Positions 2,760-39,149 of a stretch of 39,972 nucleotides of DNA are shown one piece after another. The stretch is from Prevotella sp. GTDB taxonomy: Bacteria > Bacteroidota > Bacteroidia > Bacteroidales > Bacteroidaceae. Both the position numbers and the translations under genes were made by a program. The stretch covers positions 1 through 39,972 of the forward strand of contig JAGCXX010000171.1 in assembly GCA_017961115.1 (NCBI GenBank), written 5' to 3'. The notes under the pieces are model-generated. The model ran no database searches. It was not told where the DNA came from and was given only the letters and a program-made list of their open reading frames with translations. Position 1 is the first letter of the stretch, and every line of letters starts with the position of its first letter.

Positions 2760-3724
2760 TAAGAGTAGGAATCCTCGGAGCAGCAGGTTACACTGGCGGT
2801 GAACTCATCCGCCTTCTGCTCAACCATCCCGAGACAGAGATCATATTCGCCAACAGCGAAAGCAATGCCGGCAACCCCATTGCCGATGTGCATGGGGGGC
2901 TGCAGGGCGACACCGACCTCACCTTTACTGACCAGATGCCTTTCGACCAAGTCGACGTGGTGTTCTTCTGCTTCGGCCATGGCAAGAGTGCGGCATTCCT
3001 TGCCCAGCACACCATCCCCGCTAACGTGAGAATCATCGACTTGGCACAGGATTTCCGTATCGCAGCACCAGACAATGACTTTATCTACGGACTGCCAGAA
3101 ATCAACCGCGCCAGCATTGCCAAGGCACAGCATGTAGCCAACCCAGGGTGTTTCGCCACCTGCATCCAACTTGGACTGCTCCCCGCCGCCCATCTCGGAC
3201 TGCTCTGCGGCGACATTTCCGTCAACGCCATCACAGGCAGTACGGGAGCCGGACAGAAAGCTACCGCCACCACCCATTTCTCTTGGCGCAACAACAACAT
3301 GAGCATCTACAAGCCCTTCCAACACCAGCATGTGCCGGAAATCTTGCAGAGCATCAAGCAAGTGCAGGGGAATTTTGAAGGCGAGATAGGATTCATCCCC
3401 TACCGCGGCGACTTCGCCCGCGGCATTTTTGCTACTGAGGTGGTGAAGACCGATGCCGACATCGACGATATCGTGGCAGCCTACAAGGCTTTCTATGCCA
3501 GCGCACCCTTCACTCACTACAGCGACAAGTCCATCGACCTCAAGCAGGTGGTCAACACCAACAAGGCACTGGTGCACTGCGAGAAATATGGCAACAAACT
3601 GCTCATCACCTCGTGCATCGACAACCTCCTCAAAGGCGCTGTCGGACAGGCGGTGGAGAACATGAACATCATGTTTGGCATTGACGAGACGGCCGGACTG
3701 AAACTCAAACCATCCGCATTTTAA
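2756..3724 (+). CDS. argC: N-acyl-gamma-glutamyl-phosphate reductase
   Basis: ArgC reduces the acylated glutamyl phosphate to the semialdehyde with NADPH, the third step to ornithine. The 322-aa protein has the Rossmann nucleotide loop GAAGYTGGE (residues 8-16) and the catalytic cysteine C132 in ANPGCFAT (128-135). The segment STGAGQKATATTHFSW then follows where other ArgC proteins have SGVSGAG. Start ATG at 2756 overlaps the pspC stop codon by four bases. Whether the acyl group is acetyl or succinyl cannot be read from this protein; the ArgF' type suggests succinyl. Identification is secure. Confidence 0.96.
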   Translation: MIRVGILGAAGYTGGELIRLLLNHPETEIIFANSESNAGNPIADVHGGLQGDTDLTFTDQMPFDQVDVVFFCFGHGKSAAFLAQHTIPANVRIIDLAQDFRIAAPDNDFIYGLPEINRASIAKAQHVANPGCFATCIQLGLLPAAHLGLLCGDISVNAITGSTGAGQKATATTHFSWRNNNMSIYKPFQHQHVPEILQSIKQVQGNFEGEIGFIPYRGDFARGIFATEVVKTDADIDDIVAAYKAFYASAPFTHYSDKSIDLKQVVNTNKALVHCEKYGNKLLITSCIDNLLKGAVGQAVENMNIMFGIDETAGLKLKPSAF

Positions 3725-19422: not shown

Positions 19423-19428
19423 TCGGAT

Positions 19429-21822
19429 ATGACACGCTACACATACAATATCATCCCATTATCTTCGGTTCTCGCTGTCTTTCTGCTGACCCTGTTTTCA
19501 CCAGTCCAAGCAGCCACAAAAGGTTATGCCCTGTGGTGCTTCGATTCGAAGACACTCTATTTTGTGGCGGCGGAAAGCGCTCCCTATACCTACAACGGGA
19601 AACAAATGAGCAAAGTCTGGGAAATCAACGACTTCAACATAAGAGGTGGAGCCGCAGCACCCATCTGGATCAACGGAGGCCACAGCAGTGAGGTGTCGGT
19701 GGCTTCTGATGTCGAGACCGTCATCTTCGAAGAGAGTTTCACATCCGTGCAACCTTCCGGCCTCTACAGTTGGTTTCATGGCTGCAGCAAACTCACCAGG
19801 GTAGAGGGACTGGCCAACATCAACACAAGCCAGGCGAATTACGCCAACAAGATGTTCTATGGCTGCACCAGTCTTAGGGAACTCAATTTCGTGGGATTCG
19901 ACATCAGCCATATCACCAACACCACAATGATGTTTTATGGCTGTGAAGCACTGGAGACCATCTATGCTGATGGCCATTGGGATGCCGCCCACTCCTCCTT
20001 CATGTTCCGGGGTTGCACCTCACTGCACGGAGCAGCCAATTATCAGGCAGATGCCGTGGGAGGAGAGATGGCCAATGACGAAACTGGCTATTTCACCACA
20101 GGCCAATATACCTATGCGGTTATCATTTCATCCGAACCTCAACTGCATCTAATCCGCACACCTTATCCTCTGGCAGTAGGTGAAGAATACAAAGGAAAGC
20201 TCATTTACGAACTCTTTGAGGGGAGTTCATTCCTAAGCATAACCAATGGAGATATGCCTTGGCATAATTGGGGATTGACAAATGTTGTCGTGGACAGGAC
20301 ATTCCGCAACGTGGCGCTGAAATCGTGCGCCAACTGGTTCAACACCTCACAGGGCAGGATTGTCAGCATCACTGGTCTGGAGAATCTCAACACCTCGGCA
20401 GTGACCTCGATGAGTGGGATGTTTGAGGGTTGTGGCAACCTCACCAGCCTTGACCTGAGCCAGATGGACACACACAACGTCACTGATGTGAGCCGCCTGT
20501 TTGCAGGTTGCAGTTCACTGACCAACCTCACCCTCGCCGACAACCAGTTTAAGGGCATCACCCAGATGCAGTCGATGTTCAGTGGTTGCAAGGCTCTCAG
20601 GACCTTCGATTTCTCCGCCATAGTCACCGACCATGCCGTCGACATGTCCTACTTGTTCCAAGATTGCAGATTTGAGTCCTTCGATGTGAGTGTCCTCCAA
20701 ACCTCCAACGTGGAGTGCATGAAAGGCATGTTCAAGGGATGCAACAAGTTGACCGAACTGGATGTCAACACCCTCGACATAGGTAAAGTGACCGATGCCA
20801 GCGAGATGTTCAGCGGTTGCAGCAGTCTGACCACCATCTACTGCGACAAGACCTGGAGCATCGCCACTTCCGACGACATGTTTGCTGGTTGCACAAGTCT
20901 CGTCGGAGCCATCACTTACGATGAGTCAAAGGTGAGCGGCGACTATGCCAACCCCATGACAGGCTATTTCTACTCTGAGATTGCAGGACCCACTTATGAT
21001 CCACAGGGACGCTTCATCATCCGCAATGCAGACGACTGGGAGACCTTTGCCCAACTGGTCAATGGCGATGACGGTAATCCAAAACTTAACGCAGTGATGA
21101 TGAGAGATGTCAACCTTGGCGACAAGCAGACCAAAGTGGGCACAGATGACAAGCCCTATGAAGGTACTTTCGACGGAAAAGGCCACCTGCTGACCATCGC
21201 ATACGTTTCCGAGAGTAATTTCACCGCCCCCTTTGCTTTCATCAAAAATAGTACAATTGAAAACCTGCATGTGACAGGAACCATTCAGACCAGCCACAGG
21301 TATACAAGCGGTATTGCCGGATGTGTCGAAGGAGAGAGCACTTTTACCAAATGCTGGTCAAGTGTCTCCATCCAGTCTGACATCAACGGGAATGGTTTCC
21401 ATGGCGGTATGATTGGAATAATGGAAAACACATCATCCGTCTCCATGACCAACTGTCTCTTCGATGGTAAACTGCTGGGTGAGAACACCACCATTTGCGG
21501 TGGATTCATCGGCTTAGCCACGAACTACATCAAGTCTTCAACCCTCTACATGTGCCTGTCCAATCCTGCCAGCATCAGTTTCAATGTTGATCCGATTACG
21601 GAGAGGTTCCGTTACTACAGTGGTCCGATGTATGCCTTCTACGATTCAAGCAGCCAGCAACAAATAAACAAAATTGACGCAACATATTCCTTTTACACCA
21701 ATTCATTTGGCAGTACATCCGGCCAAGGAACATTACATACCGGAACACCCCAAGGAATAGTGGATTCTATGGATCCCGAACACTGGCAATTATTTGACGG
21801 CAAACCAGCCCTCAAATACTGA
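19429..21822 (+). CDS. Exported DUF285/BspA-like repeat protein with a GLUG-like C-terminal region
   Basis: This 797-aa protein has a signal peptide ending about VQA (residue 28). Two related halves follow (about 29-228 and 229-517) built from the 25-residue repeat pattern of DUF285/BspA-like proteins: 'NTSxVTxMxxMFxGCxxLxxLDL', seen for example as MSGMFEGCGNLTSLDL and MFSGCSSLTTIYC. A GLUG-type region ends the protein (about 520-797, with YEGTFDGKGH and GFHGGMIGI). No lipobox and no C-terminal sorting tail are seen, in contrast to its neighbours, so how it is held at the surface is unclear. It follows the preceding gene after 6 bases and is surely co-transcribed with it. Confidence 0.87.
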   Translation: MTRYTYNIIPLSSVLAVFLLTLFSPVQAATKGYALWCFDSKTLYFVAAESAPYTYNGKQMSKVWEINDFNIRGGAAAPIWINGGHSSEVSVASDVETVIFEESFTSVQPSGLYSWFHGCSKLTRVEGLANINTSQANYANKMFYGCTSLRELNFVGFDISHITNTTMMFYGCEALETIYADGHWDAAHSSFMFRGCTSLHGAANYQADAVGGEMANDETGYFTTGQYTYAVIISSEPQLHLIRTPYPLAVGEEYKGKLIYELFEGSSFLSITNGDMPWHNWGLTNVVVDRTFRNVALKSCANWFNTSQGRIVSITGLENLNTSAVTSMSGMFEGCGNLTSLDLSQMDTHNVTDVSRLFAGCSSLTNLTLADNQFKGITQMQSMFSGCKALRTFDFSAIVTDHAVDMSYLFQDCRFESFDVSVLQTSNVECMKGMFKGCNKLTELDVNTLDIGKVTDASEMFSGCSSLTTIYCDKTWSIATSDDMFAGCTSLVGAITYDESKVSGDYANPMTGYFYSEIAGPTYDPQGRFIIRNADDWETFAQLVNGDDGNPKLNAVMMRDVNLGDKQTKVGTDDKPYEGTFDGKGHLLTIAYVSESNFTAPFAFIKNSTIENLHVTGTIQTSHRYTSGIAGCVEGESTFTKCWSSVSIQSDINGNGFHGGMIGIMENTSSVSMTNCLFDGKLLGENTTICGGFIGLATNYIKSSTLYMCLSNPASISFNVDPITERFRYYSGPMYAFYDSSSQQQINKIDATYSFYTNSFGSTSGQGTLHTGTPQGIVDSMDPEHWQLFDGKPALKY

Positions 21823-23400: not shown

Positions 23401-26400
23401 ATGAATCGGAAAATTGACTCTATTATGATTAAGGACAATAGCATGGAATGCTATCGATGGGGAACAGGTCTGATGCTCTTCATCATGTCTATGCTCATGC
23501 CTCAGATGGCATCAGCAACCGATGTGGACGACGCTTCCAACTATAAGGTAACCCCCATGGGAATACGTGAAATTTCCATTGCATGCCCAATTGTCGACCA
23601 GGACGGTGCCGACTGTTGGGTCGTCGATGGCAACCTCATAGTCTCTGTTGATGGCGGTCCCAAAATCACCGTGCTGCATTGGAGTTGTTACGACAACAAC
23701 GACTCGGGCACGATGCGAACATACGTGAAGACGGACGCCAACGGAGAGGTATACATCACCAATGTCAGCAACAGCAAGCCTGTTCTGCTCACCAAAGGCG
23801 TTCAGACGCTTCAAAAAGTTGAGCAGGGTTCCAAATCCTACCTTTATTCACTCAAGGCAAAATGGAATATCCCCGATGATTATTTCGGTAAGGAGTTGAA
23901 ATTCACATGGGATGTGAAGAGAGATGGCAACGCCAGATACAAAGAGAAGGTGTCTGGATTGCCTGATTTCGAATGGTCGGTACCCGATTCTCCCCCAGTG
24001 CTTGATGTAATGGTGTCGGAACCGTTGATACTGCCCGATAATGCGGGCAAGATTCTTGTTCCATGGATGCTGGGTTCGAATGACATTCAGAAAGCCGAGG
24101 CATATTACTATGATGTGAACAACCAAGAAGTGCGGATGCCTGTGGACATCAAGAATGGCTCCAACATGGTTTCGCTCGATGCTACAAGCCCTCACCGTGG
24201 TTTTTATATTGAGACGGACTACAAAGATACTTATGGCTCGCTCATCAAGAATGTGCGCAACCAGCCTGTGGACATCAAGATGATTCATGCCCCTCTCAAT
24301 TTCAAAGGATCATTGACAAACGACTCACTGCTGTCGATAATCCTGACTTGGAATATCTTTGCACAAAACGACGATGACCTGCTCGAAAGCGACCTCTTTG
24401 AGATACAGAGATCTCTTAACGGCAAAGACGGCAATTACACAACAATTGGTGTGGAAATGCTTGACTTGTCGAAGAGGAACTACTCTTTCAAAGATTCCAC
24501 CCTGATACCATCGTTGACCGCAGATATGTTTAATGAAGACGGTAGTGTCAAAGACATCTACTACCGCATACGGCGTGCGTGCACTGATATGTGGGGATGG
24601 TATCCTGAAAACAACACCGTGGCTGCTTTTAGCATCAAGCCGAATATACCCTCTCTCTTCATGGTCAAGAAAGCGTGGATAGAGAAAGACAGCCAAAACG
24701 AATATGCCGTGACTGCTGCTTGGGATTACAACACATACTTGGATGAGGAAGACTGGTTTCACCATCAGTTTGTTTGGGATGATCGTGCCCAAATGAAGCT
24801 TAAGGTAAAAATGTGCAACCGCAAAGGAGAAATTGTGGACACCCAAGAATACATCCTCACCAAAGATGAGATTTATGCCAAGAAAAAGAAACTGACTTTC
24901 TCGCGGCCTTGTGTCAACTATTACGTGGAAATAACGGTCGACAGAGGGACAAGTCCCATAGGAACAGGCATAAGGGGTATCACCATCAACTCGAAAAATG
25001 AATGGGATGACTTAGTACAAGAAATCAGACAGAATTCCCTCAATGCCTTAAAGTATTACGTTCAACTCAACGCTGACTTTGAGATACCTCAAACCAACAA
25101 TGAGGATTTTCTCATGGGAACTAAAAACAGACCTTTTGTCGGTATCTTCAATGGCAACGGACACACCATCAAGGCAAATGGAAATCCTATATTCAATTAT
25201 GCAAAAAACGCCAAAATATGCAACTTAAACGTGGTGCAGGAAGGGAGGTCAAATTATCATTATGACAATTTGGCTTGTATGGTCAACGATGCCGACAATG
25301 TGGTGGTCAGCAACAGCACAGTGACGGCTGATTTGGACAGGTTCAAGAAAATTGCAGGTTTTGTCTTTAAAGCAAAAGATGTAACCATCAACAACTGTCT
25401 CTCAACCCTTAAATGGCGAAGAGATACAGACAACGACTCTTTTGCGGGATTTATCTACAACAGCATTTCGGGCAATACCATTGTCAACTCTTATTTCTGT
25501 TCAGACAACCTGGATTCCAAATTTGGCAAAGACTTCTATTATGATGGGGCATGCACCCTCGTCAACTGCTGGTATCCACGCTCTATTAAAGAATACACGT
25601 TCACGGATGGACAGGGAAAGGAATATTGGAGAGAAGACCCCGACAATCCTCCACTCACTGAGATTCTCGGCGATCAATGGGAATCTGCAGACAATGTCCC
25701 CGGAGACTTACCTTTCAAACTCTCTAAGGTTTGGCCTGTTGTGGCGCCAATAGACACAGAGACCAACACGCTGGTCACATCGGCCATGGGATCGACATTC
25801 TACTACGAGTCATCAGGTAAGGTGGACAAGCCTATCACTGCCATCACCTTGCAGAGCAGCGTCGTCATACAATGGTCTGTGAGCGATGGTGCCGTCGATT
25901 ATTTTGAGGTGATGCGGCGCGAACAAGGCAAGCAGGAATGGAGTGTCATCGCTACTGACCTCACCGAACTAAGTTACGAAGACAAGAAGGTCTCGCCACT
26001 TAAAAAGTACGAGTATAAAGTTCGCTCTGCTGTGAACTGCGAAGGCACAAGCTATCACTATTCCGACTCTGTGGCAGGCTTCTGTAAGGAGACTTGCCTC
26101 ATCGAAGGATATGTGAGATTCTCCGACGGAACAGGCATTTCCAACATCACATTGTCTGTCACTGGACCCAACGGCATTCATGTCGGTGATTACCTGACCG
26201 ACGAAAAAGGCAAGTTCGTCATCGACAACCTGTCATATTATGGGAATAGTTCTGTCACCTACAAGGTGGGTGTAGTAAGCGAGGACGATTTGAAACTTGA
26301 ACTCAGTGAATATCAGGTGACGTTCAATGATACAATCAACCACCGGGTGCTCAAGGACTTCATTGTCACCTCTGGATATAGGTTCACTGGTTTTGTGATG

Positions 26401-29400
26401 TATGAAGGCACGTCGATACCTGTGCAGGGAGCCAATGTTTCCGTCGATGGGCATGACATTTACCTTCCCACAGGCAAATTGCTTGAGACCGACTTCAGCG
26501 GCAAATTCTCATTCATTGTGCTGGGAGGCAAGAGAGACATTGTGGTCAAGATGGACGGCCATCAATTCAAAGACGGAGGCAAATTCACACATGTCTTCAC
26601 CGACAAACTCTCAAGCATCTACTTCTATGACAAGACTTCGGTGAAACTGATTGGCCGCGTGGTGGGAGGCGACACGCAGGGTAACCTGCCTCTTGGACAA
26701 AACCTCTCGACCAACAATCTCGGAAGCGACATCACCATGGTTTTGACACTGGAGGGCGACAACGTATCCAATATCGTGTCCGACAACACCAATCCCACAC
26801 TCGCAGAGCGCGACACCGTGTTTCACAACGGCAAATCAGCAGGCGACTCCAACGACTACATCACAAAGGTGAAGATGTACCGCAAGCGTATCGTCGTGAA
26901 GCCCGATTCCCTCACCGGTGAGTTCACACTCATGCTGCCACCGGTGAAATGGAAGGTGCAGCAAATCTACTGTGAAGGATATGCCTCTCTGTTCCAAGAG
27001 GGAAAGGTAAGCGATATCATCGACCTCACCAACTGTGTGGAACGACAGCAAATGACATATGAGGGAGCATGGACCAACCACGCCGGAGTCACCATCACCA
27101 ATCCCATGGTGGAATACAATGCCATCTACAACCGCATCTACCACAGTCCTGTGGAACTGACCTACTCGCAGATGGGCTACTCGACATTCGACTATTATGG
27201 CGACTTCAGCTACACTGCCACCAACATCGGCGGCGGTACGGATGTGGTGCCATTGGTCTATCAGGTGCCTGATGAGAAGGCAGGCAAGAGCAGTGGCAAA
27301 GTAATGAAGACCAAATACACCTTCGAACATCCTGTATTCACGGTCAACCGCAAATACACTTACAAACTGGCTGCTGTGGAGCGCTATTATTGGAACAACA
27401 ACCACTCGAGCGACACCGTCGACTTGGTGCAGATGAATGGTGGAAAGGTGAGGGTACACAATGGCTTGTACAGCTCCACCCATTTCGAGGATATCGACCT
27501 CGATGACCATGGCGAGGGTTACATGGATCTTGAGGTGGCTCAGGTCAACTACAACCTCACGAAAAAGGATGCGCTCCGCACCGTGACCATGACGCTTGAC
27601 CTCGACGGCAAGACTTATGAGGCAGAGCCGCTCAAGGCTTACATCTTCAATTTATATACCTTTGCTGGAGCAAGCGATGTGCTCAATTCATCAAAGCCCA
27701 CACTCGTCGATATCCTGCGCGACCCACCGGGAGGAGGCAGTTTTGCCACCTTGTCAAAAGGTTCGACACTGAAATACACCTATGCCATGGACTTAAAATG
27801 GTCGGCAGGTGTCTCCATGGACTTCAAGACAGGAACAGGCATGAACAACTACTACGGCTTCGTGATGAGCACTTCGGCTGGCATGTTGGGACCATCCTAT
27901 GGTGTGATACAGGATTCCAAGACAGGATTCCAATACAAGAATGACATCTTGTTCTCCGGCAAAGGGAACAGGGCCTTCGAATACACCATGACCTCCACAG
28001 AGGACATCTCCACCAGTTCGGCTGCCTCCATGGTTGGCGCGCCCGCCGACATCTACATTGGAATGGTGCAGAACAACGTCGTGAAAAAAGGCGTTACCAT
28101 CAGGGCTATCCCCGACAGAATCTTCAAGCAGATGGAAGGACGTCTCCCGGGAGCCATTTTGCCCGACGGCAGCAAGGACAAAGCCGGCACTATGGTTGAG
28201 ATAGCATGTGGAAAGGATGCCAATGACAGCATCTACCATCTCGTGCGCGACGAATCGCTCGTGCTCGGTGCCAACATAGAGTCTACTTTCGTCCACTCGC
28301 AGAATTACATCATCAAGCAACTTCTGCCCGACCTGGTGGAGAAATGCCGGTCGCTCATGTTCATCGGCACACCTGATGAGGCTCAGGCACAAGCCAACGC
28401 CACAGGCAATAACGTGTATCTCTCATTGAGAACTCCCGATGACGAGAACTTCGCGATGATGAACTCATCGTACTATACACTTAAGATGCACCAGTCCGAT
28501 GAACGGAAAGAGGACATGAACTACTGCGTTGTCACACCTAATGGCGACATTGATCCCGTCCAAAAAGATGAGGTGCAGAAATATTGCGGCATCATGTATG
28601 AATGGATCAATATGATTGTCCGGAATGAGGAGGAAAAACTAAATGCTGACGAGCTTGTGCAGAACATCGATGTCGATGGCGGCTCAAAGAACAACTATTC
28701 TGAGAATTTTGAGACTTCTTACTCGACCAGCTCATCGACAATCTGGCCACTCGGAATCAATGCCGACAACTTCCTCTCTGCCACAGGCAATGAAGGAGAG
28801 AATATTGCTAATGCTTTGAGCATATTTGGCAATACTTTCGGAAAGTTTTACATCAATATTCTGCAAAAAGCGATGAAAACCAGCGACATCGAGGCCGATT
28901 GGTTGTCATCTGAAACAGAGGTCAACTTTACGGGCAGCAGCTTCAAGTATCTCTTCTATCCTGTCATGTCCTATGATGTCACGCCCAACAATACGACAAA
29001 GCAGACGTACAACCGCAAGGAGTCATTCTCCATCAGCATGAACAATGCCTCACACCTTAATGTTGATGTTTACCGCGCCAAGTCGGTTGTTGGCTCCACC
29101 AAAAAGAGCAAAGACGTGATGGACGTGTTCACCAGCCAGAACTTCTACGCTCAAGTGGATTACAACAACGATTACCTAAAAAGGCACCTTGACCTGGGCT
29201 CAAATGACACCCCAGTCAGGTTTGCCCGTGGCTTCGTCTACCGCACACGCGGGGGTGCTACCGCACAACCTTGGGAAGATGAGCGCAAGACCGTTTTCTA
29301 CAATTCGGGAACGGTGCTCGACACACGGACAAAGAAGATAGAGAACCCCAAAATCACACTCGACAAGCAGAGTATCAGCGGGGTGCCGTATGGAGAGCCT

Positions 29401-32400
29401 GCACGTTTCAAACTCTATATGACCAACGACAGCGAGGAGCCCAACTCCGTGACCGGTGGCCTCTCCTATTACAATCTCTACCTCAACGACGCATCCAATC
29501 CCAATGGTGCGAAACTGATAATCGACGGAATACCACTTTCAGGCAATCCGCGTGAGATTTATGTTCCGTTCGGCCAGGTGACAGAAAAGACCCTTGAGGT
29601 GTATGCCGGAGAAGAATTCGATTACGAAGGATTGCAACTGAGTTTGATATCCAAGGGTGATTCAAAGACCTTGGACATGGTGAAATTCGACGTTCACTTC
29701 CTGCATACGGCAGGCGCTGTCAACATCTCCACACCAGGCGACAAGTGGGTGATGAACACCGATGCGCCATATCATGAGAAGAGAGGTTATTTCCTGCCTG
29801 TCAAGATTGACGGATTCGACCGCAAGCAGAAGAACTTCGACCATATAGAGTTCCAGTACAAAGAGTCGTCACGCGGTGATGACCATTGGACCAACCTCTG
29901 CTCATACTATGACTCTGACACGCTCATGGCAAAGGCGAGCGGAAACAAGTTGAAGATTCCCGACAACGGATACATCAGCACTGAGTTCTATGGCGAGGGT
30001 ATCGTCATGGAGATGGCTTATGACCTGCGTGCCGTGCTTTTCATACGCAATGGAAACGGCTTCATCACTTCCTCGTCGAAGGTCCTCAGTGGAATCAAAG
30101 ACACCAGGCGACCAAGTCTCTTTGGCACACCTGAACCTTCCGACGGAATACTTGATATCGGGGAGAATGTCATATTCAACTTCTCCGAAGACATCCAGCA
30201 CAACTACCTCGACCAAAAGACCAACTTCGAGGTGAAGGGTGAGGTAAACAACGACAATGTTTCCGAGGCTGTGTCTATTGAGTTCCAAGGCGAAAGCAGC
30301 GTTGAGACGGATGCCATGCGCAATTTCACCGGAAAGGACATCACCATCAGCATGATGGTATTGCCCGAGTCTACCGGCAAGCCCATGCCGCTCTTCTCAC
30401 ACGGGACCGACAACAAGAAACTGCAATTCTGGCTCACCGAAGACTTCAGACTCAAGGCAGTGGTCGACGACCAGAGTTTTGAGACGGAAAAAGCTGTTGA
30501 GTTTGACACGTTCAAACAACTTTCCATGGTCATCCGCCAACCCGAAAAAGAGCAAGATCCATGCACACTTACCCTTTACAGCGGCGGAGTGTCCTATGGT
30601 GAATACGATTTGGCTGTACCTTACACCGGAACAGGCGCGCTCATCTTCGGACGCACCAATGAGAAAAACAGAACCGATGCCAACTGTTCCTTCTACAAAG
30701 GACGCATGATGGAGGCAAGACTCTGGTACCGTGCTCTCACAGGTATACAGATAGGCACCGTCTATGGCAACAAACGCCTCACAGGATATGAACTGGGGCT
30801 TGTGGACTATTACCCGATGAACGAGGGTGAGGGCGACCATGCTGTCGACAAGGCACAGGGAGCACATGCGCGGCTTTTCGATGCCTCATGGGTACAGCCA
30901 CGGGGTATGTCGCTGCACCTCGACAAGGAGGACAAAGGCATGGCGCTCAGCCAGGATGCCTTCAACCGTACCGATGACGAGGACTACACCCTCATGTTCT
31001 GGTTCAAGACAAACAGCGAAGGACGTGGCGCGCTCATCAGCAACGGTTCCGGTCAAGCTTCCGATATCGATGCCCGCAACCAATTCTTCATCGGTTTCGA
31101 GGCCGAGCGCCTCTACTACCGCTCCAATGGCATGGAGATAGAAATCACCGGCGACTACAGCGACAACAAGTGGCATCATTACGCCATGACGGTGAACCGC
31201 TCAAGCAATATAGGCAACATCTATATGGACCGCGAACTTAAGGCCACCTTCTCCGTGGATAACCTCGGAGGTGTATCTGGCGGTTATCCCATGCTTGGGG
31301 CTACGCTCCACAAGACTGTCGACGGCAACGTTGTGGAAGATACCCAAAACTGGTTCAAGGGCAACATCGACGAGATCTGTGTCTTTGAGCAGGCGCTGCC
31401 GCTCTCGCTCATCAAGAGTTATAGCCTCAAGAGTCCTTACGGTGATGAGGCAGGCCTCCTGACATACATGGGATTCAGCCGTCAGGAAAGACAGCAGAAC
31501 AACAACCTCGAATTTGTTCCCTACGTCTATAGCCAGCGCATCTACAAAGATGACCAAGGCAATATGAGATACGAACTCGACCCGTTGACAAAACAGCCCA
31601 CCAACACGCCGGTGCGCGACTTCATCTTTGATGAATCCTCAGTGAAGCCCCAGGACGTGATGGCACATATCGACCAGACGGAAGGCGCTCCTGTGAAGCC
31701 TTATGAGGAACTGAAGAATCTCAACTTCAGTTTCGTGGGACGCGACAACCAACTGCTCGTGAACATCGATGAGCCAACGGAGTATATCAACAAGCGCAAC
31801 ATCTATGTCACAGTAAGAGACATTCCCGACATGAACGGCAACGCCATGGCTTCTCCAGCCACCATCAGTTGCTTCATCGACCGCAACCCGCTGCGATGGA
31901 AGGAGAAGACCCAGAAGTATGTCATTCCTTACGGAGAAGGACAGGTCTTCGACGTGCTGATCAAGAATGTCAGCGGAAGCGCCCATACCTATGAGGTGAC
32001 CAATACGCCGAGGTGGCTGACCGTCTCGCCGATGACCAACACCATATCTGCCAAAGACGAGACCCTGCTGCAGTTCAGCGTCAACAAGAACCTCAATGTG
32101 GGCACATACGACGAAATCATCTACCTCACTGATGAGAACGGCCTCTCGGAGCCGATGTCACTAAGCGTCACCATCTATGGAGAGGCTCCCGACTGGGAGG
32201 CCAGCAGAGATTTGCGCCAGTACACGATGAACATTGTGGGACGTGTCGTGATGGGAAGCCACGACAACAATCAGTTGGTCACCGACTCACGTGACGTTGT
32301 TGGTGCGTTCGACCGCAAGGGCATATGCCATGGCGTGGCCAACATCTCCTATGATGAGCAGACCGGCAGCAGCATGCTTTACCTCACGGTATACAACAAC

Positions 32401-33558
32401 TCGACCCAAATCGATGAGCTCTACTTCAAACTATGGCACTATGCCACCGGCAAGGAGATGATTCTCACCAACTACGACAATATCTCATTCGTTCCATCCA
32501 AGCTCTACGGCTCCAAGAACTCGCCTTGCATATTCTATGCTGACAATCAGTATGTGCAGACGCTTCACTTGGAGAAGGGCTGGAACTGGGTGTCGTTCAA
32601 TGTCTATTCCGAAAGTTTCAAAGACCTCAACCGGCTTCTCGACGGCTTCGACTGGCAGAATGGTGACATCCTCACCGACAACACCAACAATATGACGCTG
32701 GTCTACTCCGACAACCACTGGACGCTCTCCGAGAAGATTGAGAATCTCTCCATCAACCCCAGGAACTTCTATGCCGTGAGGGTCAGCAAAGACATCACCG
32801 TGCAACTGGCAGGATATACTGTCAAGGACAAGAGCGACCGCACCATAAAAATCAATCCGGAATGGAACAGCATAGGATACACTCCAATGGTCAACCTGCC
32901 CGTGGAAACGGCTCTTGCCGGTTACTTCCCGTATGCCAAGGATGGCGACATCATCAAGAGTCACGATGAGTTTGCTGTCTTCAACGAATACGGCGGAAGC
33001 GGACACTGGGAAGGCAGTTTGCAGTACATGAAACCCGGAGAAGGATACATGCTTTACCACAACAGTACCGACAAGGTGACGTTTGAATATCCGTTCTACG
33101 AACCGGGAAGCATGTTTATCGATGCCAACTATGCCCCACCATCTCCCAACATGCACCTGTCTATGGCGAACACCATGTCGCTCACAGCAACTGCTGTAGG
33201 GGTGACACTGGAGCCTGGCGACAAACTGCTCGCATTTGCAGATGGCGATTTGCGTGGTGAAGCCACAGTGGAGTCCGACAGCATCTTCTACCTCAGCATC
33301 GGTGGCGACCACCAGCAAGGCATCTCATTCGCCATCGAGCGCGAAGGTGAGATTGTAGCCACTACACCGGAGGTAATCACCTATACCACCAATACCGTGA
33401 TGGGTAGGAAAGACACACCTACACGCATCGATTTCACTCAGACTGAAGCCAAGCCACAGCAAGGATGGTATACCCTCGAGGGTGTCAAACTGCCAAGCCG
33501 TCCGACAAAGAAAGGTGTCTATATCTTCAACGGCAAGAAGATTGTGATAGAAAACTGA
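23401..33558 (+). CDS. Giant multidomain exported protein (3385 aa) with Fn3, LamG and C-terminal tail
   Basis: A hydrophobic segment at about 22-36 with possible cleavage after ASA (residue 39) serves as signal peptide; M9 and M15 are alternative starts. In order I see: two Fn3-like domains (about 300-420 and 810-895), a GLUG-like module between them (about 525-670, PFVGIFNGNGHTI), carboxypeptidase-regulatory-like beta domains (about 900-1080, TDFSGKFSF), a long part of no recognised family (about 1100-2230), an Ig-like part (about 2235), two LamG-type lectin-fold domains (about 2290-2465 and 2500-2680, WHHYAMTVNR and FKGNIDEICVFE), an Ig-like domain (about 2840-2925), a repeated VGAF/LLAF module (about 2940-3040 and 3250-3340) flanking a GWNWVSFNV domain, and the tail GVYIFNGKKIVIEN. 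It is probably a surface or released adhesion or glycan-binding protein. Twenty bases separate it from a lipoprotein gene. Confidence 0.88.
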   Translation: MNRKIDSIMIKDNSMECYRWGTGLMLFIMSMLMPQMASATDVDDASNYKVTPMGIREISIACPIVDQDGADCWVVDGNLIVSVDGGPKITVLHWSCYDNNDSGTMRTYVKTDANGEVYITNVSNSKPVLLTKGVQTLQKVEQGSKSYLYSLKAKWNIPDDYFGKELKFTWDVKRDGNARYKEKVSGLPDFEWSVPDSPPVLDVMVSEPLILPDNAGKILVPWMLGSNDIQKAEAYYYDVNNQEVRMPVDIKNGSNMVSLDATSPHRGFYIETDYKDTYGSLIKNVRNQPVDIKMIHAPLNFKGSLTNDSLLSIILTWNIFAQNDDDLLESDLFEIQRSLNGKDGNYTTIGVEMLDLSKRNYSFKDSTLIPSLTADMFNEDGSVKDIYYRIRRACTDMWGWYPENNTVAAFSIKPNIPSLFMVKKAWIEKDSQNEYAVTAAWDYNTYLDEEDWFHHQFVWDDRAQMKLKVKMCNRKGEIVDTQEYILTKDEIYAKKKKLTFSRPCVNYYVEITVDRGTSPIGTGIRGITINSKNEWDDLVQEIRQNSLNALKYYVQLNADFEIPQTNNEDFLMGTKNRPFVGIFNGNGHTIKANGNPIFNYAKNAKICNLNVVQEGRSNYHYDNLACMVNDADNVVVSNSTVTADLDRFKKIAGFVFKAKDVTINNCLSTLKWRRDTDNDSFAGFIYNSISGNTIVNSYFCSDNLDSKFGKDFYYDGACTLVNCWYPRSIKEYTFTDGQGKEYWREDPDNPPLTEILGDQWESADNVPGDLPFKLSKVWPVVAPIDTETNTLVTSAMGSTFYYESSGKVDKPITAITLQSSVVIQWSVSDGAVDYFEVMRREQGKQEWSVIATDLTELSYEDKKVSPLKKYEYKVRSAVNCEGTSYHYSDSVAGFCKETCLIEGYVRFSDGTGISNITLSVTGPNGIHVGDYLTDEKGKFVIDNLSYYGNSSVTYKVGVVSEDDLKLELSEYQVTFNDTINHRVLKDFIVTSGYRFTGFVMYEGTSIPVQGANVSVDGHDIYLPTGKLLETDFSGKFSFIVLGGKRDIVVKMDGHQFKDGGKFTHVFTDKLSSIYFYDKTSVKLIGRVVGGDTQGNLPLGQNLSTNNLGSDITMVLTLEGDNVSNIVSDNTNPTLAERDTVFHNGKSAGDSNDYITKVKMYRKRIVVKPDSLTGEFTLMLPPVKWKVQQIYCEGYASLFQEGKVSDIIDLTNCVERQQMTYEGAWTNHAGVTITNPMVEYNAIYNRIYHSPVELTYSQMGYSTFDYYGDFSYTATNIGGGTDVVPLVYQVPDEKAGKSSGKVMKTKYTFEHPVFTVNRKYTYKLAAVERYYWNNNHSSDTVDLVQMNGGKVRVHNGLYSSTHFEDIDLDDHGEGYMDLEVAQVNYNLTKKDALRTVTMTLDLDGKTYEAEPLKAYIFNLYTFAGASDVLNSSKPTLVDILRDPPGGGSFATLSKGSTLKYTYAMDLKWSAGVSMDFKTGTGMNNYYGFVMSTSAGMLGPSYGVIQDSKTGFQYKNDILFSGKGNRAFEYTMTSTEDISTSSAASMVGAPADIYIGMVQNNVVKKGVTIRAIPDRIFKQMEGRLPGAILPDGSKDKAGTMVEIACGKDANDSIYHLVRDESLVLGANIESTFVHSQNYIIKQLLPDLVEKCRSLMFIGTPDEAQAQANATGNNVYLSLRTPDDENFAMMNSSYYTLKMHQSDERKEDMNYCVVTPNGDIDPVQKDEVQKYCGIMYEWINMIVRNEEEKLNADELVQNIDVDGGSKNNYSENFETSYSTSSSTIWPLGINADNFLSATGNEGENIANALSIFGNTFGKFYINILQKAMKTSDIEADWLSSETEVNFTGSSFKYLFYPVMSYDVTPNNTTKQTYNRKESFSISMNNASHLNVDVYRAKSVVGSTKKSKDVMDVFTSQNFYAQVDYNNDYLKRHLDLGSNDTPVRFARGFVYRTRGGATAQPWEDERKTVFYNSGTVLDTRTKKIENPKITLDKQSISGVPYGEPARFKLYMTNDSEEPNSVTGGLSYYNLYLNDASNPNGAKLIIDGIPLSGNPREIYVPFGQVTEKTLEVYAGEEFDYEGLQLSLISKGDSKTLDMVKFDVHFLHTAGAVNISTPGDKWVMNTDAPYHEKRGYFLPVKIDGFDRKQKNFDHIEFQYKESSRGDDHWTNLCSYYDSDTLMAKASGNKLKIPDNGYISTEFYGEGIVMEMAYDLRAVLFIRNGNGFITSSSKVLSGIKDTRRPSLFGTPEPSDGILDIGENVIFNFSEDIQHNYLDQKTNFEVKGEVNNDNVSEAVSIEFQGESSVETDAMRNFTGKDITISMMVLPESTGKPMPLFSHGTDNKKLQFWLTEDFRLKAVVDDQSFETEKAVEFDTFKQLSMVIRQPEKEQDPCTLTLYSGGVSYGEYDLAVPYTGTGALIFGRTNEKNRTDANCSFYKGRMMEARLWYRALTGIQIGTVYGNKRLTGYELGLVDYYPMNEGEGDHAVDKAQGAHARLFDASWVQPRGMSLHLDKEDKGMALSQDAFNRTDDEDYTLMFWFKTNSEGRGALISNGSGQASDIDARNQFFIGFEAERLYYRSNGMEIEITGDYSDNKWHHYAMTVNRSSNIGNIYMDRELKATFSVDNLGGVSGGYPMLGATLHKTVDGNVVEDTQNWFKGNIDEICVFEQALPLSLIKSYSLKSPYGDEAGLLTYMGFSRQERQQNNNLEFVPYVYSQRIYKDDQGNMRYELDPLTKQPTNTPVRDFIFDESSVKPQDVMAHIDQTEGAPVKPYEELKNLNFSFVGRDNQLLVNIDEPTEYINKRNIYVTVRDIPDMNGNAMASPATISCFIDRNPLRWKEKTQKYVIPYGEGQVFDVLIKNVSGSAHTYEVTNTPRWLTVSPMTNTISAKDETLLQFSVNKNLNVGTYDEIIYLTDENGLSEPMSLSVTIYGEAPDWEASRDLRQYTMNIVGRVVMGSHDNNQLVTDSRDVVGAFDRKGICHGVANISYDEQTGSSMLYLTVYNNSTQIDELYFKLWHYATGKEMILTNYDNISFVPSKLYGSKNSPCIFYADNQYVQTLHLEKGWNWVSFNVYSESFKDLNRLLDGFDWQNGDILTDNTNNMTLVYSDNHWTLSEKIENLSINPRNFYAVRVSKDITVQLAGYTVKDKSDRTIKINPEWNSIGYTPMVNLPVETALAGYFPYAKDGDIIKSHDEFAVFNEYGGSGHWEGSLQYMKPGEGYMLYHNSTDKVTFEYPFYEPGSMFIDANYAPPSPNMHLSMANTMSLTATAVGVTLEPGDKLLAFADGDLRGEATVESDSIFYLSIGGDHQQGISFAIEREGEIVATTPEVITYTTNTVMGRKDTPTRIDFTQTEAKPQQGWYTLEGVKLPSRPTKKGVYIFNGKKIVIEN

Positions 33559-33578
33559 CGATTCGCACTCAATGAAAG

Positions 33579-34418
33579 ATGAGAAATATGAAAAAGAACG
33601 ATCTATTCGGTTTGATGATGCTCGCAGCCCTCACACTCATGTGGGGCTGCAGCTCATCCGATGACAACAATGATGATGATGTCACCCCTGCACAGACGGC
33701 CCTGAGATGGACCAAGACCCAGGGAGCACCCAACTGGGAAATCGACTGGTCGGGCAATGACAGTCCTCCTCAATGGACGGCACCCTCACCAGAAAAGTAT
33801 GAGACATGGATGATACTGATGGTCACCTTGCAGCCAGAACTGGTACCCTACTGTACGGACGATGACTTGATGGCAGCATTCATCGACAATGAGTTGAGAG
33901 CTTTGACTGGTCCTGGAGTAAAAGTGGGAACTAACACGAAAAAAGTCTCGTTCATCCTGAAAATAATGGGCAATGAGACAGCTGATGTGAAAGTGAACAT
34001 GACCCTGAAATATTATTGCAGCAAACTGAAGCAGACGTTCACCATCACTGGCAATGAACTGTTCTTGCCAGAGCAGGTGTATGGCGTGGATCAGGACTAT
34101 ATACCCAACCTGTTGAAAGGATGCCCCAGATACCCTGTACAAATGCAACTCTCATTGCTTTTCCCGCAGCCGATGCCCAAGGAACTGCAGCCCAATGCTG
34201 CTGATATCATAGCCGTCATGGTGGGTAGTGATTGCAGGGCCATGACCACAGTAGGAGAAAATCTGCTCGCCAGTCCTGTGAACCTTATGGTGAGTGCAAA
34301 ACAGGAAGGTGAGAAAGGCACCATCTACTATTTCAGCGCACGTGAGAATACAGTTTGGAACACTGGAGTGACAGTGGACATCACATCAGCAGCTCAACAC
34401 CTGATGATGAAATACTGA
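33579..34418 (+). CDS. Surface lipoprotein made of two copies of the module also found in the giant protein
   Basis: This 279-aa protein has a lipoprotein signal peptide with lipidation at C24 (MWGC) followed by SSSDDNNDDD, an acidic stretch that in Bacteroidetes sends lipoproteins to the cell surface. ATG at 33588 is an equally good start. After a Trp-rich linker come two related segments: residues 72-185 with DDLMAAFIDNELRAL (95-109), and 186-270 with AADIIAVMVGSDCRAM (207-222). Both resemble the modules at about 2940-3040 and 3250-3340 of the upstream giant. The 20-base gap and the terminator behind it make the two genes one transcription unit, so the lipoprotein may anchor or assemble with the giant. 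No known function. Confidence 0.88.
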   Translation: MRNMKKNDLFGLMMLAALTLMWGCSSSDDNNDDDVTPAQTALRWTKTQGAPNWEIDWSGNDSPPQWTAPSPEKYETWMILMVTLQPELVPYCTDDDLMAAFIDNELRALTGPGVKVGTNTKKVSFILKIMGNETADVKVNMTLKYYCSKLKQTFTITGNELFLPEQVYGVDQDYIPNLLKGCPRYPVQMQLSLLFPQPMPKELQPNAADIIAVMVGSDCRAMTTVGENLLASPVNLMVSAKQEGEKGTIYYFSARENTVWNTGVTVDITSAAQHLMMKY

Positions 34419-34637: not shown

Positions 34638-37600
34638 ATGAAAAGGCCTATAACTCTATTACTATACAGTCTACTGTGCATATGCTTATCTTCAGCAGCT
34701 TGGGCACAAGAGAGCCACGTATTGGGATATTGCTCCGATGACCTCACCGGAGCTGCAGCCTTTGGAATCAACTCTGAAGTGCGTCTTTCTGGTGCCATCC
34801 GCCTACCGATGAGTACGATGCAGCGATATAAAGGCGGCCGTGTCACACACATCAAGGTTGCACTTGGCGAAGGAGTGGAAAAACCATCCGTGTGGATTCG
34901 CACATCACTGACTGAAAGTTCGAAAGTAAGCCAAAGCATCAGCCAGCCCGTCAACGGATGGAACGATGTGCAACTCAACCGCCCGCTCACCATCGATGGC
35001 AGCGACCTCTATATCGGTTTTACCTACACCCAGCCAGCGGGCGTGAAAGGCATACTCACCAAGGGCGAGGGCAATGCCAACACCTCACTGCTCGCCATCG
35101 ACAACATATGGGATGACTTCCACAATGATGGTGTCGGCATCCTTTGCATCCAGGCTGTGGTGGAAGCCGACCTCCCGGAACACGACCTTGGTGTCATTGC
35201 CGTAGAGACCGACAGTCTTTTCTACCATCAGTCTGGTCAAGTGCAGGTCACGGCAACGATAGAGAACCTGGGCACTGGCAACACCAATGGTTATTATTTG
35301 GCATGGAGCATCGACGGACAAGTCGTCAATGCCGACAAAATCCTTTATGAAGCCCCTGCTCCTGGCGAGACCTTCACCGCACACAAGACATTCAATCTGA
35401 ATACTCTCAGTGAGGGTGCCCATAAGGTGGAAGTCATTTTGAATGGTGGCGAGGCTGATGAGAAAACCGACAACAACATCTGTCAATCCAACTTCTATAC
35501 CTACAAGACCTGTTACGGCCACAAGGTGCTGCTGGAGCACTTCACATCGCTGCCCTGCGTCAACTGCCCCCCAGTGGACCAACTGTTGGAGAGCGTTGTC
35601 TCCAAACGCAACGATGTGGTTTGGGCCGCCCACCATGTGGGATACCGCAACGATGAGTTCACCATTGATGCCAGTGAGCCCTACATCAAGTTTGGTGTCC
35701 TTGGCAATCCCTATGTCATGCTCGACCGATACCCTGTCGGTGAAGAAACACCCGCCTTCACCATCAGCAATTACACCGCCGACCAACTCAGTGCCACCTT
35801 TGACAAGACAAGTCAGCGGCCCGCCTTCGTGCAACTCGAAGCACAGCTTGAGGCTGAAGGCAGACAATTGAAAGCCACAATTGGCGGACAGGCATGGAAA
35901 TGTTTCCAGGAACTCTATCCCCGTGCCACAATCAACGTATTCATCGTAGAGGATGACGTGCCAGCAGTCGGTTCACAGGCAGGTGACTCCAACAAGAAAC
36001 GCCACGACAACATCGTCAGAGCCATCCTCACAAGGCAGTCGGGCGACCTGCCCACCTGGACGGAAGCGAATACCTTCGCACAAACCTATACCGCCGAGGC
36101 TGATGCCTCATGGAACTTAAGCAACCTCCGCGTGGTGGTGTTCGCCACCGCAGCAGCCGACCGCAGCACCGGCTATCCCACCGGCGAGGTGCTCAACGCT
36201 ACGCAAGCCCCCATCAGTCTCCAAGCCCAAGCCACACTGCCCTACCGACAGACTTTCGACGACGTGAGCGACTTCGAGACCTTTATTGTTGAAGATGGGA
36301 ACAACGACGAGTCTACCTGGCAATACGACGACATCATGTTGGCTGCAAAAAGCGAGCGCAATTATGATGCCGACGACTGGCTTATCACACCGGCATTCGA
36401 ACTGAAGAAGGGACAGACCTACCAACTCAAGTTCAATGCATACAACGAATTGGAAGATACAGAGACCATCGACATCTTCATGGGAACCGGCAGTACGGCA
36501 TCCGCTCTGACCACCAACATCATGCCGGCCACCACTGTCACCGCCATCACCGCCACGACCTTCACCGTCACCTTCGTGGCCGACAACACCGATTTCTACC
36601 GCATCGGTTTCCACCACCGCACGACAGGCAATCCCTACTTCAATTTCCTCTACATCGACAATATCACCCTGGAGGAAGTCACCAGTCAGGCGGCACCAGC
36701 AGCCGTCACCGACCTTATCGTGACACCAGGTGAGAAAGGAGCTCTCTCCGCCACCATTACCCTACGCACACCAAAGCAGACCATCGACGAGCAACCACTC
36801 ACCCAACTGAACAAGGTGGACCTCTACCGCGACGGCCAACTGCTCCACTCGTTTGCTTCCCCGGCAATAGATGCAGAGCTTACCTATGACGACACGGAGG
36901 GACTCTCCAACGGCAGCCATACCTACAAGGCCATCGCCGTCAACAGCAAGGGCAGCAGCAGTCCGACAGAGACCACCACCTATATCGGCATCGATGTACC
37001 GGGACCCGTGGAAAACCTTCATTTCACCTACGACTACGACACCCACAAGGCCACCGTCTCCTGGGATGCGCCCTCCATGGGCGCCCACGGCGGCTATGTC
37101 GACACCAGCAACCTACGTTACAGCCTGCGCAAATACCCCATGTCATCGGGCAAGACCATCACCGCCCCCATCAGCACCACACACTATGAGGAGGAATTCG
37201 ACATCGAATGGCTCATCGCCGCCGCAGAGGAACGCTACCGTGAAACCGAGGAGGCCTATGGGATTCCCGTGGCCCATACCATCGTCATCGACGGGCAGGG
37301 ACTGACTTACTACTTTGTGAAAGCCATCTCCGACATCGGTGAGGGAGCAGAGACCACCTCCGAATCACGCATCATCGGCGAGCCCTACCCACTCCCCTTC
37401 GCAGAGTCGTTCTCCGGTGCCATACCAAGTCATTTCTGGCACAAGCCCGTCACCTCTCTCCGCAACCGCTGGTATGAGATGTCCGACAACCGCTACTCAC
37501 AGGACGGCGACAATGGATTCCTCGCCTATACCGTCTCTGTCATCGAAGGCAATGACACCAACATCGAGGAGACAGCCATCGCCCATACCGGTAGGCTTGA

Positions 37601-39149
37601 CCTGTCGAAAGCCACCACACCAGTCATCTCGCTCTATTACTTCATCCCCTACACCATGAGTCACCCGCTGAACATCAAGGTGTCTGACGACGGACTGAAT
37701 TTTACCACCATAGGCACTATCGACACTTCCGATGAGACAATGACGGGCCGCTACGTGCGCGCCATCATACCACTGACGGGCATCAGCAATCCCAGCAGTT
37801 GCTATGTAGGACTGGAAGGCACGCTCACCAACAGTTCGGAACTCATCTATGTGGACAACATCACCATTTACGACCAGAAGAACTACGACCTCGCAGCCCA
37901 TCTCGCCCACCTGCCCTCACACCTATGGAGCGGCGAACCACGCATCGTGAAAGTGGATGTGAGCAACATTGGCGAGACCGACGTGGAAGCAGAAGCCTAT
38001 GATGTGGACATCCTCGTCGATGGCCAACTGTGCGGCCATGCCTCTGGAACCACTGTGAAAGTGGGTGAGACAGAGACCGTCAGTGTGGCTGTCACCGCCA
38101 CCGTCAACATGGCCTCCACCAGTGAAATCTTCGCAAGGGTGAATTACGCCGCCGACGAGAACACAGACAACAACACCAGCAATACCGCCAACATCAAGGT
38201 GAGAACTCCTTCGTTCCCCGTGCCACAACATCCCGTCATCTCCAGCGGAGTCTCCATCCTCTCATGGAATACCCCTGAGCCACCCCGCAGTCAAGATGAG
38301 ACGGTCACCGAAAGTTTTGAGGACTATGAGGACTTCACCACTACTGACCTCGGCGACTGGGTGCTGATTGACGGCGACAAAAACCTTACCTACAGTTGGG
38401 GCGAAGACTACAACTGGCCCAACCGCACCCGTCCACATGCCTTCATCGTCATGACTCCCGCAGAAGTGGAACTGTCAAACGGCGGAAAGGGACTGAGTCC
38501 CTCATGGCAGGCTCACAGCGGTGCCAAGATGCTCATGTCGTCGAGCAGCTACGAGGCCAACGACTGGCTCATCTCCCCCGACCTGTCGGGCAGTGCGCAG
38601 ACCATCACTTTCTTTGCCCGGGGCACCAACAGTTACGCAGAGTCGTTCGAGGTACTCTATTCCACCACCGATAATGAGCCTGAGAGCTTCACTGCCATAG
38701 GAAAGACTGTAGCCTTCAAGGGAGCAGAATGGAAACAATATACCTACCAACTACCTGAGGGCAGCCGCTATTTCGCTATCCGTAAGGTGACCAATGACGG
38801 CAACATGCTCTTCATCGATGACATCACATTCGTTCCTGAGACCCATGCCCGCCAAGACCTGACCTTGTTGGGCTACAACGTCTATTGCGATGGTGAGCGC
38901 ATCAACGATGTTCTCATCACCGGAAACTCTTTCGGTGAGATTGGCAATGGCGACTATTACGTCACCGCCGTCTATGACAAGGGAGAATCCGCCTTGTCTG
39001 AGAAAGCCATCAGAAACCAGACAGGAATCCGTGAACTCCCAGCAGATACAGAAAAAACTTCCCGTCTCTACGACCTCATGGGCCGTCCTGTATCAGGAAA
39101 ACAGAAGGGCATCTACATACAGGGAGGGAAGAAGGTGATTAAAAATTAA
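34638..39149 (+). CDS. Exported Omp28-like protein with three choice-of-anchor-J/cleaved-adhesin-type domains
   Basis: This 1503-aa protein has a signal peptide ending about AWA (residue 23). After a beta-rich N-terminal region and a CARDB-like domain (about 185-285) comes an Omp28-like, thioredoxin-related region starting near 291 with VLLEHFTSLPCVNC, a CxxC pair at C307 and C310. Choice-of-anchor-J or cleaved-adhesin-like domains follow at about 534-670, 918-1080 and 1221-1404 (each with a W-L-I-S/T-P or LDLS strand and a V/I-D-N/D-I-T ending); Fn3-like domains lie at about 690-910 and a CARDB domain at about 1085-1190. The end has LYDLMGRPVSG and the tail GIYIQGGKKVIKN. Related modules occur in Porphyromonas haemagglutinins and Omp28, so an adhesive surface role is likely. 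It has its own promoter behind a strong terminator. Confidence 0.88.
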   Translation: MKRPITLLLYSLLCICLSSAAWAQESHVLGYCSDDLTGAAAFGINSEVRLSGAIRLPMSTMQRYKGGRVTHIKVALGEGVEKPSVWIRTSLTESSKVSQSISQPVNGWNDVQLNRPLTIDGSDLYIGFTYTQPAGVKGILTKGEGNANTSLLAIDNIWDDFHNDGVGILCIQAVVEADLPEHDLGVIAVETDSLFYHQSGQVQVTATIENLGTGNTNGYYLAWSIDGQVVNADKILYEAPAPGETFTAHKTFNLNTLSEGAHKVEVILNGGEADEKTDNNICQSNFYTYKTCYGHKVLLEHFTSLPCVNCPPVDQLLESVVSKRNDVVWAAHHVGYRNDEFTIDASEPYIKFGVLGNPYVMLDRYPVGEETPAFTISNYTADQLSATFDKTSQRPAFVQLEAQLEAEGRQLKATIGGQAWKCFQELYPRATINVFIVEDDVPAVGSQAGDSNKKRHDNIVRAILTRQSGDLPTWTEANTFAQTYTAEADASWNLSNLRVVVFATAAADRSTGYPTGEVLNATQAPISLQAQATLPYRQTFDDVSDFETFIVEDGNNDESTWQYDDIMLAAKSERNYDADDWLITPAFELKKGQTYQLKFNAYNELEDTETIDIFMGTGSTASALTTNIMPATTVTAITATTFTVTFVADNTDFYRIGFHHRTTGNPYFNFLYIDNITLEEVTSQAAPAAVTDLIVTPGEKGALSATITLRTPKQTIDEQPLTQLNKVDLYRDGQLLHSFASPAIDAELTYDDTEGLSNGSHTYKAIAVNSKGSSSPTETTTYIGIDVPGPVENLHFTYDYDTHKATVSWDAPSMGAHGGYVDTSNLRYSLRKYPMSSGKTITAPISTTHYEEEFDIEWLIAAAEERYRETEEAYGIPVAHTIVIDGQGLTYYFVKAISDIGEGAETTSESRIIGEPYPLPFAESFSGAIPSHFWHKPVTSLRNRWYEMSDNRYSQDGDNGFLAYTVSVIEGNDTNIEETAIAHTGRLDLSKATTPVISLYYFIPYTMSHPLNIKVSDDGLNFTTIGTIDTSDETMTGRYVRAIIPLTGISNPSSCYVGLEGTLTNSSELIYVDNITIYDQKNYDLAAHLAHLPSHLWSGEPRIVKVDVSNIGETDVEAEAYDVDILVDGQLCGHASGTTVKVGETETVSVAVTATVNMASTSEIFARVNYAADENTDNNTSNTANIKVRTPSFPVPQHPVISSGVSILSWNTPEPPRSQDETVTESFEDYEDFTTTDLGDWVLIDGDKNLTYSWGEDYNWPNRTRPHAFIVMTPAEVELSNGGKGLSPSWQAHSGAKMLMSSSSYEANDWLISPDLSGSAQTITFFARGTNSYAESFEVLYSTTDNEPESFTAIGKTVAFKGAEWKQYTYQLPEGSRYFAIRKVTNDGNMLFIDDITFVPETHARQDLTLLGYNVYCDGERINDVLITGNSFGEIGNGDYYVTAVYDKGESALSEKAIRNQTGIRELPADTEKTSRLYDLMGRPVSGKQKGIYIQGGKKVIKN

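Follow-up and report, generated by a model that had tools for sequence, protein, structure and literature searches.

A giant protein of 3385 residues and the lipoprotein encoded next to it in a Prevotella sp. genome each carry two copies of one homologous module, and the two genes go together in the close family of the giant. Both lie on contig JAGCXX010000171.1 of assembly GCA_017961115.1, which was analysed over 39,972 nucleotides (the window; it is one contig of a 3.84 Mb, 303-contig genome that is 86.1% complete). That the two products work as a two-component functional unit is likely; that they make a two-part surface structure, giant and lipoprotein acting jointly at the outer membrane, we hold to be an evenly balanced proposition. 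The genes and the four module copies are the following:

23401-33558, forward strand: gene of the giant protein (open frame, 3385 residues)
33579-34418, forward strand: gene of the lipoprotein (open frame, 279 residues; alternative start possible at Met4, position 33588)
32185-32535, forward strand: GM1, giant module copy 1
33148-33438, forward strand: GM2, giant module copy 2
33768-34088, forward strand: LM1, lipoprotein module copy 1
34119-34415, forward strand: LM2, lipoprotein module copy 2

The likeness of the four copies had been recognised by pattern in an earlier note on this DNA, because the single sequences are barely similar: blastp of the window sequences matches two of the six module pairs (E 0.006 and 0.016) and the other four not at all, and single-sequence hhalign gives probabilities below 1.5%. 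The motifs lie where that note had placed them, at giant residues 2964-2980 and 3273-3288 and at lipoprotein residues 95-109 and 207-222 (checked on the sequences). In a first ortholog set, each of the four segments was aligned separately with 9-11 sequences apiece. (Rows covering less than 60% of the segment were left out, as were, by choice, the one-module partners of loci L022 and L023 from LM2.) Comparison of these profiles by hhalign makes all six pairs significant: GM1-LM1 at E 5e-16, LM1-LM2 at 4e-16, GM1-GM2 at 9.6e-14, GM1-LM2 at 1.6e-10, GM2-LM1 at 6.9e-7 and GM2-LM2 at 9.1e-6. Twelve control comparisons, of the module with the PapD-like and the two WNW-type domains of the giant (located below), all stay under 2.1% probability. 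In a second set of 72 lipoproteins and 41 giants the six pairs have E values from 2.6e-19 (LM1-LM2) to 3.4e-6, and none of the 12 controls exceeds 3.9% probability. This set is largely, not wholly, separate from the first: the window is in both, L015 matches L084 along its whole length, and L015 and L016 have stretches in common with a few other loci. The pairwise profile alignment that the earlier note proposed as a check therefore upholds a homologous module present twice in each protein, and at the level of sequence the likeness is confirmed as real and beyond chance.

The AlphaFold2 models are confident, with a mean predicted local distance difference test score (pLDDT) of 89.0 for the lipoprotein (in LM1 above 90 over most of the copy, a single loop falling to 69) and of 87.1 for giant residues 2826-3385; strand order is the same in the modelled copies when they are compared by eye. 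The module is a predicted beta-sandwich. The module has no entry in the domain libraries searched. Against Pfam at E<=1, the module stretches of the window proteins match nothing but DUF3196 (E 0.18, 11.9 bits against a cut-off of 28.2), and against NCBIfam they have no match; 22 module copies run against Pfam reach at best E 0.014, any family appearing in one copy only, and the PDB holds no sequence match.

Among close relatives of the giant the pairing of the two genes is firmly established. Searched from the lipoprotein side, orthologs match in 10 of 60 genomes (source genome included) and at 11 places outside the source genome, from which 11 stretches were taken. A relative of the giant lies immediately upstream in 10 of these (L024, whose partner frame was identified separately, counts as a pair); the eleventh contig begins within the lipoprotein. 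Over the best aligned stretch, the window giant is 43-49% identical to its orthologs in seven loci and 28-34% in three. A scan with the C-terminus of the giant supplied the best 80 of at least 529 relatives; these 80 therefore represent the nearest members and do not sample the family at random (their record titles read Prevotella, Prevotellaceae, Bacteroidaceae, Bacteroidales, bacterium and, once, Xylanibacter brevis). Strain ATCC 19188 of X. brevis (L124), which has the pair, is a relative from the rumen that is in culture. A two-module lipoprotein is next downstream of the giant in 77 of these 80 loci, and in the remaining three (L067, L128, L139) the contig ends at or just past the giant. 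The co-occurrence in other genomes that the earlier note had said should be looked for is thus found from both sides, with exceptions at contig ends. The gap between the two genes in the 77 loci, measured with script-chosen start codons, has a median of 13 bases; it is 50 or less in 60 loci, takes the form of a 4-base overlap in 16 and is 381 at its maximum. Such short gaps and overlaps make co-expression likely. The true start of the window lipoprotein may be Met4, a position at which 71 relatives align (their starts, too, being script-chosen).

Within the source genome the module is limited to neighbouring genes. When the second pair is kept out of the profile, six places match at E<=0.01, of which three belong to the window pair and the other three to a pair on contig 36. 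Widening the profile to 56 copies gives seven matches at E<=1 in four proteins, which form two adjacent pairs; all seven were rows of that profile, and no module turns up outside these four proteins in this incomplete genome, where diverged copies can escape. The second pair (L032, positions 3157-13724 of contig 36) consists of a diverged 3202-residue giant and a module-bearing neighbour of 334 residues. Across genomes, the first profile finds the module in 32 of 80 of the genus and in 9 of 296 of the phylum (source genome included), and the wide profile in 79 of 201 family genomes, belonging to 15 of 30 genera.

The earlier note took one product to be exported and the other lipid-anchored, and both are indeed predicted to face outward. 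The elements concerned are the following:

33648-33650, forward strand: lipobox cysteine, residue 24 of the lipoprotein
33651-33680, forward strand: serine-then-acidic stretch after the cysteine (SSSDDNNDDD in the window), like the Bacteroidota lipoprotein export signal
33424-33555, forward strand: short sorting-tail-type C-terminal end of the giant (GVYIFNGKK)

The alignment of lipoproteins comprises that of the window and those of 71 of the 77 loci (six near-copies, 94-100% identical to kept ones, were left out). The cysteine is present in all 72, at least two Asp or Glu residues occupy positions +2 to +7 after it in 67, and the acidic share at +4 to +7 is 60-78%, against 14% in the rest. 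The stretch resembles the SDDDD export signal that passages of one report describe after the cysteine of Bacteroides fragilis surface lipoproteins (PMC5080379). Cysteine and acidic stretch together predict a lipoprotein on the outer face of the outer membrane. The giant is predicted to reach the outer face by way of the type IX secretion system (T9SS). By a profile of such tails, its short end resembles 62 other places in the source genome; the ends of diverged relatives' giants pass the cut-off of TIGR04183 (T9SS type A) in five of five scanned; and a search of the source genome for two parts of the secretion machine finds both above their cut-offs (SprA_N, 3.6e-232; PorV family, 9.3e-128). 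In all, the tail profile matches 86 places of the source genome at E<=1, and 63 of them reach E<=1e-3; 60 of these 63 are in frames without the module; the other three are in the two giants and the contig-36 partner. The module is therefore not a routine part of exported proteins.

The remainder of the giant is marked by the following parts:

23401-25800, forward strand: fast-changing N-terminal part, residues 1-800 (by per-block identity to relatives)
30937-31401, forward strand: LamG-like (Laminin_G_3) domain, residues 2513-2667
31876-32181, forward strand: PapD/MSP/ASH-like domain, residues 2826-2927, directly preceding GM1
32545-33100, forward strand: tandem second domain (WNW type) between GM1 and GM2 (ends approximate)

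Compared with 53 complete relatives, residues 1-800 show 5-36% identity per 50-residue block, with many gaps; from residue 801 on, identity is 18-75%, mostly at least 40%. The N-terminal 800 residues are likely the distal end. A variable far end on a kept base is the pattern expected of an adhesin with a diversifying tip, and a tip function is suggested on that ground. Fn3-like and CarboxypepD_reg-like domains lie near residues 820-1055, and the LamG-like domain matches Pfam PF13385 in two stretches (4.6e-21); in the middle of the giant, domain searches give no convincing match. The two WNW copies, GW1 and GW2, align by hhalign at 4.1e-9 in the first set; when the second set is used, with different borders, the probability is only 9%. 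W236-N237-W238 (numbering of the aligned segment) is invariant in 41 of 41 aligned giants, and this region of the window giant contains no Pfam domain. Upstream in the window, at 15175-21822, are two proteins with BspA-type leucine-rich repeats, and downstream, at 34638-39149, is a 1503-residue Omp28-type protein with choice-of-anchor J domains; the module profile gave no match in any of these neighbours.

Away from the close family the partner changes while the module stays. All 11 places of the phylum sample outside the source genome were read; they hold 10 giants and one further module protein, and beside five of the giants stand one or two further proteins that bear the module (L188, L189, L190, L195, L196). 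The 19 usable stretches of the genus sample were selected and are not random. Eight place a large module protein beside a smaller module-bearing neighbour (L142, L143, L145, L147, L148, L151, L156, L158), one has two mid-size neighbours (L144), and in one a module protein lies 3.1 kb downstream, beyond an intervening frame (L149). The minimal partners, in L188 and L189, are frames of 140 and 145 residues made up of a signal peptide, a lipobox (by eye) and one module. Elsewhere the module is constant and the anchor differs: beside the lipobox there are T9SS sorting domains of type B (partner of L024; TIGR04131, 5.5e-17) and of type A (partners of L190, L195 and L196), and a dockerin (partners of L019, L142, L151 and L158). 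The L142 pair joins a large CotH kinase that has lamin-tail domains with a partner that is a Cthe_2159 carbohydrate-binding protein with the dockerin; the two bodies are thus unrelated, and the module is the domain common to both. L142 (2015-8043), L143, L145 and L156 represent a second kind of pair, in which large proteins with a C-terminal module stand beside module proteins of 546-574 residues. The partner in L190 (11714-16795) is a protein of 1694 residues with four module copies, tandem-95-type repeats and its T9SS type A sorting domain.

How the pair would work can be sketched starting from what is observed, namely homology, gene neighbourhood and, in the source genome, a module that is limited to adjacent genes; the later steps (surface exposure, contact, tip function) are inferred. 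The T9SS probably exports the giant, and its C-terminal end probably holds it at the membrane. Because of this attachment the two giant modules would be near the surface, and the variable N-terminal 800 residues would project outward as a binding tip. The acidic signal probably carries the lipoprotein across to the outside of the outer membrane, with its two modules just above the lipid. There, on the simplest reading, they would contact the modules of the giant and so seat or steady its base like a membrane-bound collar. The tip would then bind a target; plant fibre, mucus or another cell would each be plausible.

Several observations weigh against this scheme or against its generality. Five of the 10 giants of the phylum sample have no detectable partner (L191, L192, L193, L194, L198), and its one other module protein (L197) has no giant beside it. 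Seven of the 19 genus stretches show no partner (L146, L150, L153, L154, L159, L160, L161), among them short frames in L146 and L154 and, in L153, two giants of which one is at a contig end. Two more (L152, L155) consist of two consecutive giants with no small partner detected. Such giants with no detectable partner speak against obligatory pairing. The absence of a partner is itself a weak statement, because profiles overlook diverged copies (the partner in L158 needed a second-round profile). The partner in L019 has no lipobox by eye, and TIGR04183 at E<=1 does not list the tail of the window giant. Distances of lipoprotein and giant C-terminus do correlate (r 0.82 over 40 pairs, with none of 2000 permutations as high), but this is weak support and adds little, because linked genes have one tree whether or not their products touch. 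Finally, direct module-to-module binding is an inference, and the tip-outward arrangement and the ligand have the same standing. In both L152 (1-15624) and L155 (3-15113) the second giant frame opens directly after the stop codon of the first; a family genome (G506, contig C25) has three giant-length module-bearing frames, 10-11 kb apart on the same contig.

In the main rival of a joint structure, the modules of both proteins bind one common ligand, be it a surface glycan, lipopolysaccharide or a substrate polymer, and the two work side by side without touching; we consider this somewhat unlikely. That the module does no more than provide spacing or help folding close to the sorting end of exported proteins, its copies reflecting common ancestry without joint function, would agree with the closeness of the giant's module to the C-terminal tail and with the sorting domains that end all five diverged giants scanned. 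It is hard to square with the tail matches of the source genome, so few of which (three of 63) are in module-bearing frames, and with a lipoprotein that needs no sorting domain and yet has two copies in 77 of 77 close-family loci; we regard it as improbable. Equally improbable, in our judgement, is a lipoprotein that acts at the secretion pore as a helper dedicated to secretion or assembly of the giant and has no place in the finished structure. Close pairing and short gaps are what such a helper would show, and there is a known precedent in the T9SS cargo SprB and the helper SprF encoded beside it; on the other hand, the stretch after the cysteine predicts an outward-facing protein, and in other lineages the partner bears a T9SS sorting domain, which is unsuited to an export helper. 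Very improbable indeed is a two-domain lipoprotein that polymerises as a fimbrillin-like subunit. The window proteins have no Pfam fimbrillin match, and there is no evidence of polymerisation or strand exchange.

The two-part surface structure that we prefer to these alternatives can be extended, tentatively, to a more general reading. The module might be a self-recognising dock of Bacteroidota, by which a giant, once secreted, and a partner with an anchor of its own join outside the cell through homologous modules, with bodies and anchors swapped in evolution and the dock kept. The swapped bodies would include a giant adhesin, a CotH kinase and a beta-helix that binds carbohydrate; among anchors the exchange would be between lipid, sorting domain and dockerin. 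If true, this would be a plug-and-socket system with a role comparable to that of cohesin and dockerin. With so close a pairing, and with a minimal partner that has a lipobox and a single module, small proteins would suffice for a direct test of the contact. The family is large, with at least 529 relatives of the giant's end. Of the record titles of the best 80, at least 22 mention a compartment of the ruminant stomach, and many others belong to RUG isolates; these giants may therefore be some of the longest surface proteins that rumen Prevotella have, and no role assigned to them was found.

Literature searches for a giant/lipoprotein system of this kind found no description among the papers listed; the proposed surface structure appears, as the earlier note supposed, to be undescribed. 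Among the closest known systems are SprB and SprF of Flavobacterium johnsoniae. SprF is reportedly an outer-membrane protein required for export of SprB, a giant T9SS-exported surface protein with its dedicated partner gene adjacent; the partner here differs in being a lipoprotein that consists of the same module as the giant carries. The type V (FimA/Mfa1) fimbriae of Bacteroidales differ from the present pair in that no Pfam fimbrillin is matched here and that the lipoprotein's partner is a 3,385-residue protein. With the SusC transporter and SusD lipoprotein the pair shares adjacent genes and an outward-facing lipoprotein that has an acidic export signal and would sit on a larger partner; it differs in having no transporter and in the one module common to both partners. 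Cohesin-dockerin systems resemble it in that modules are repeated on large surface proteins and on small anchored partners, and a dockerin is itself found on four related partners of the present family. In contrast to the cohesin-dockerin arrangement, the module, which Pfam names neither cohesin nor dockerin, is of the same family on both sides.
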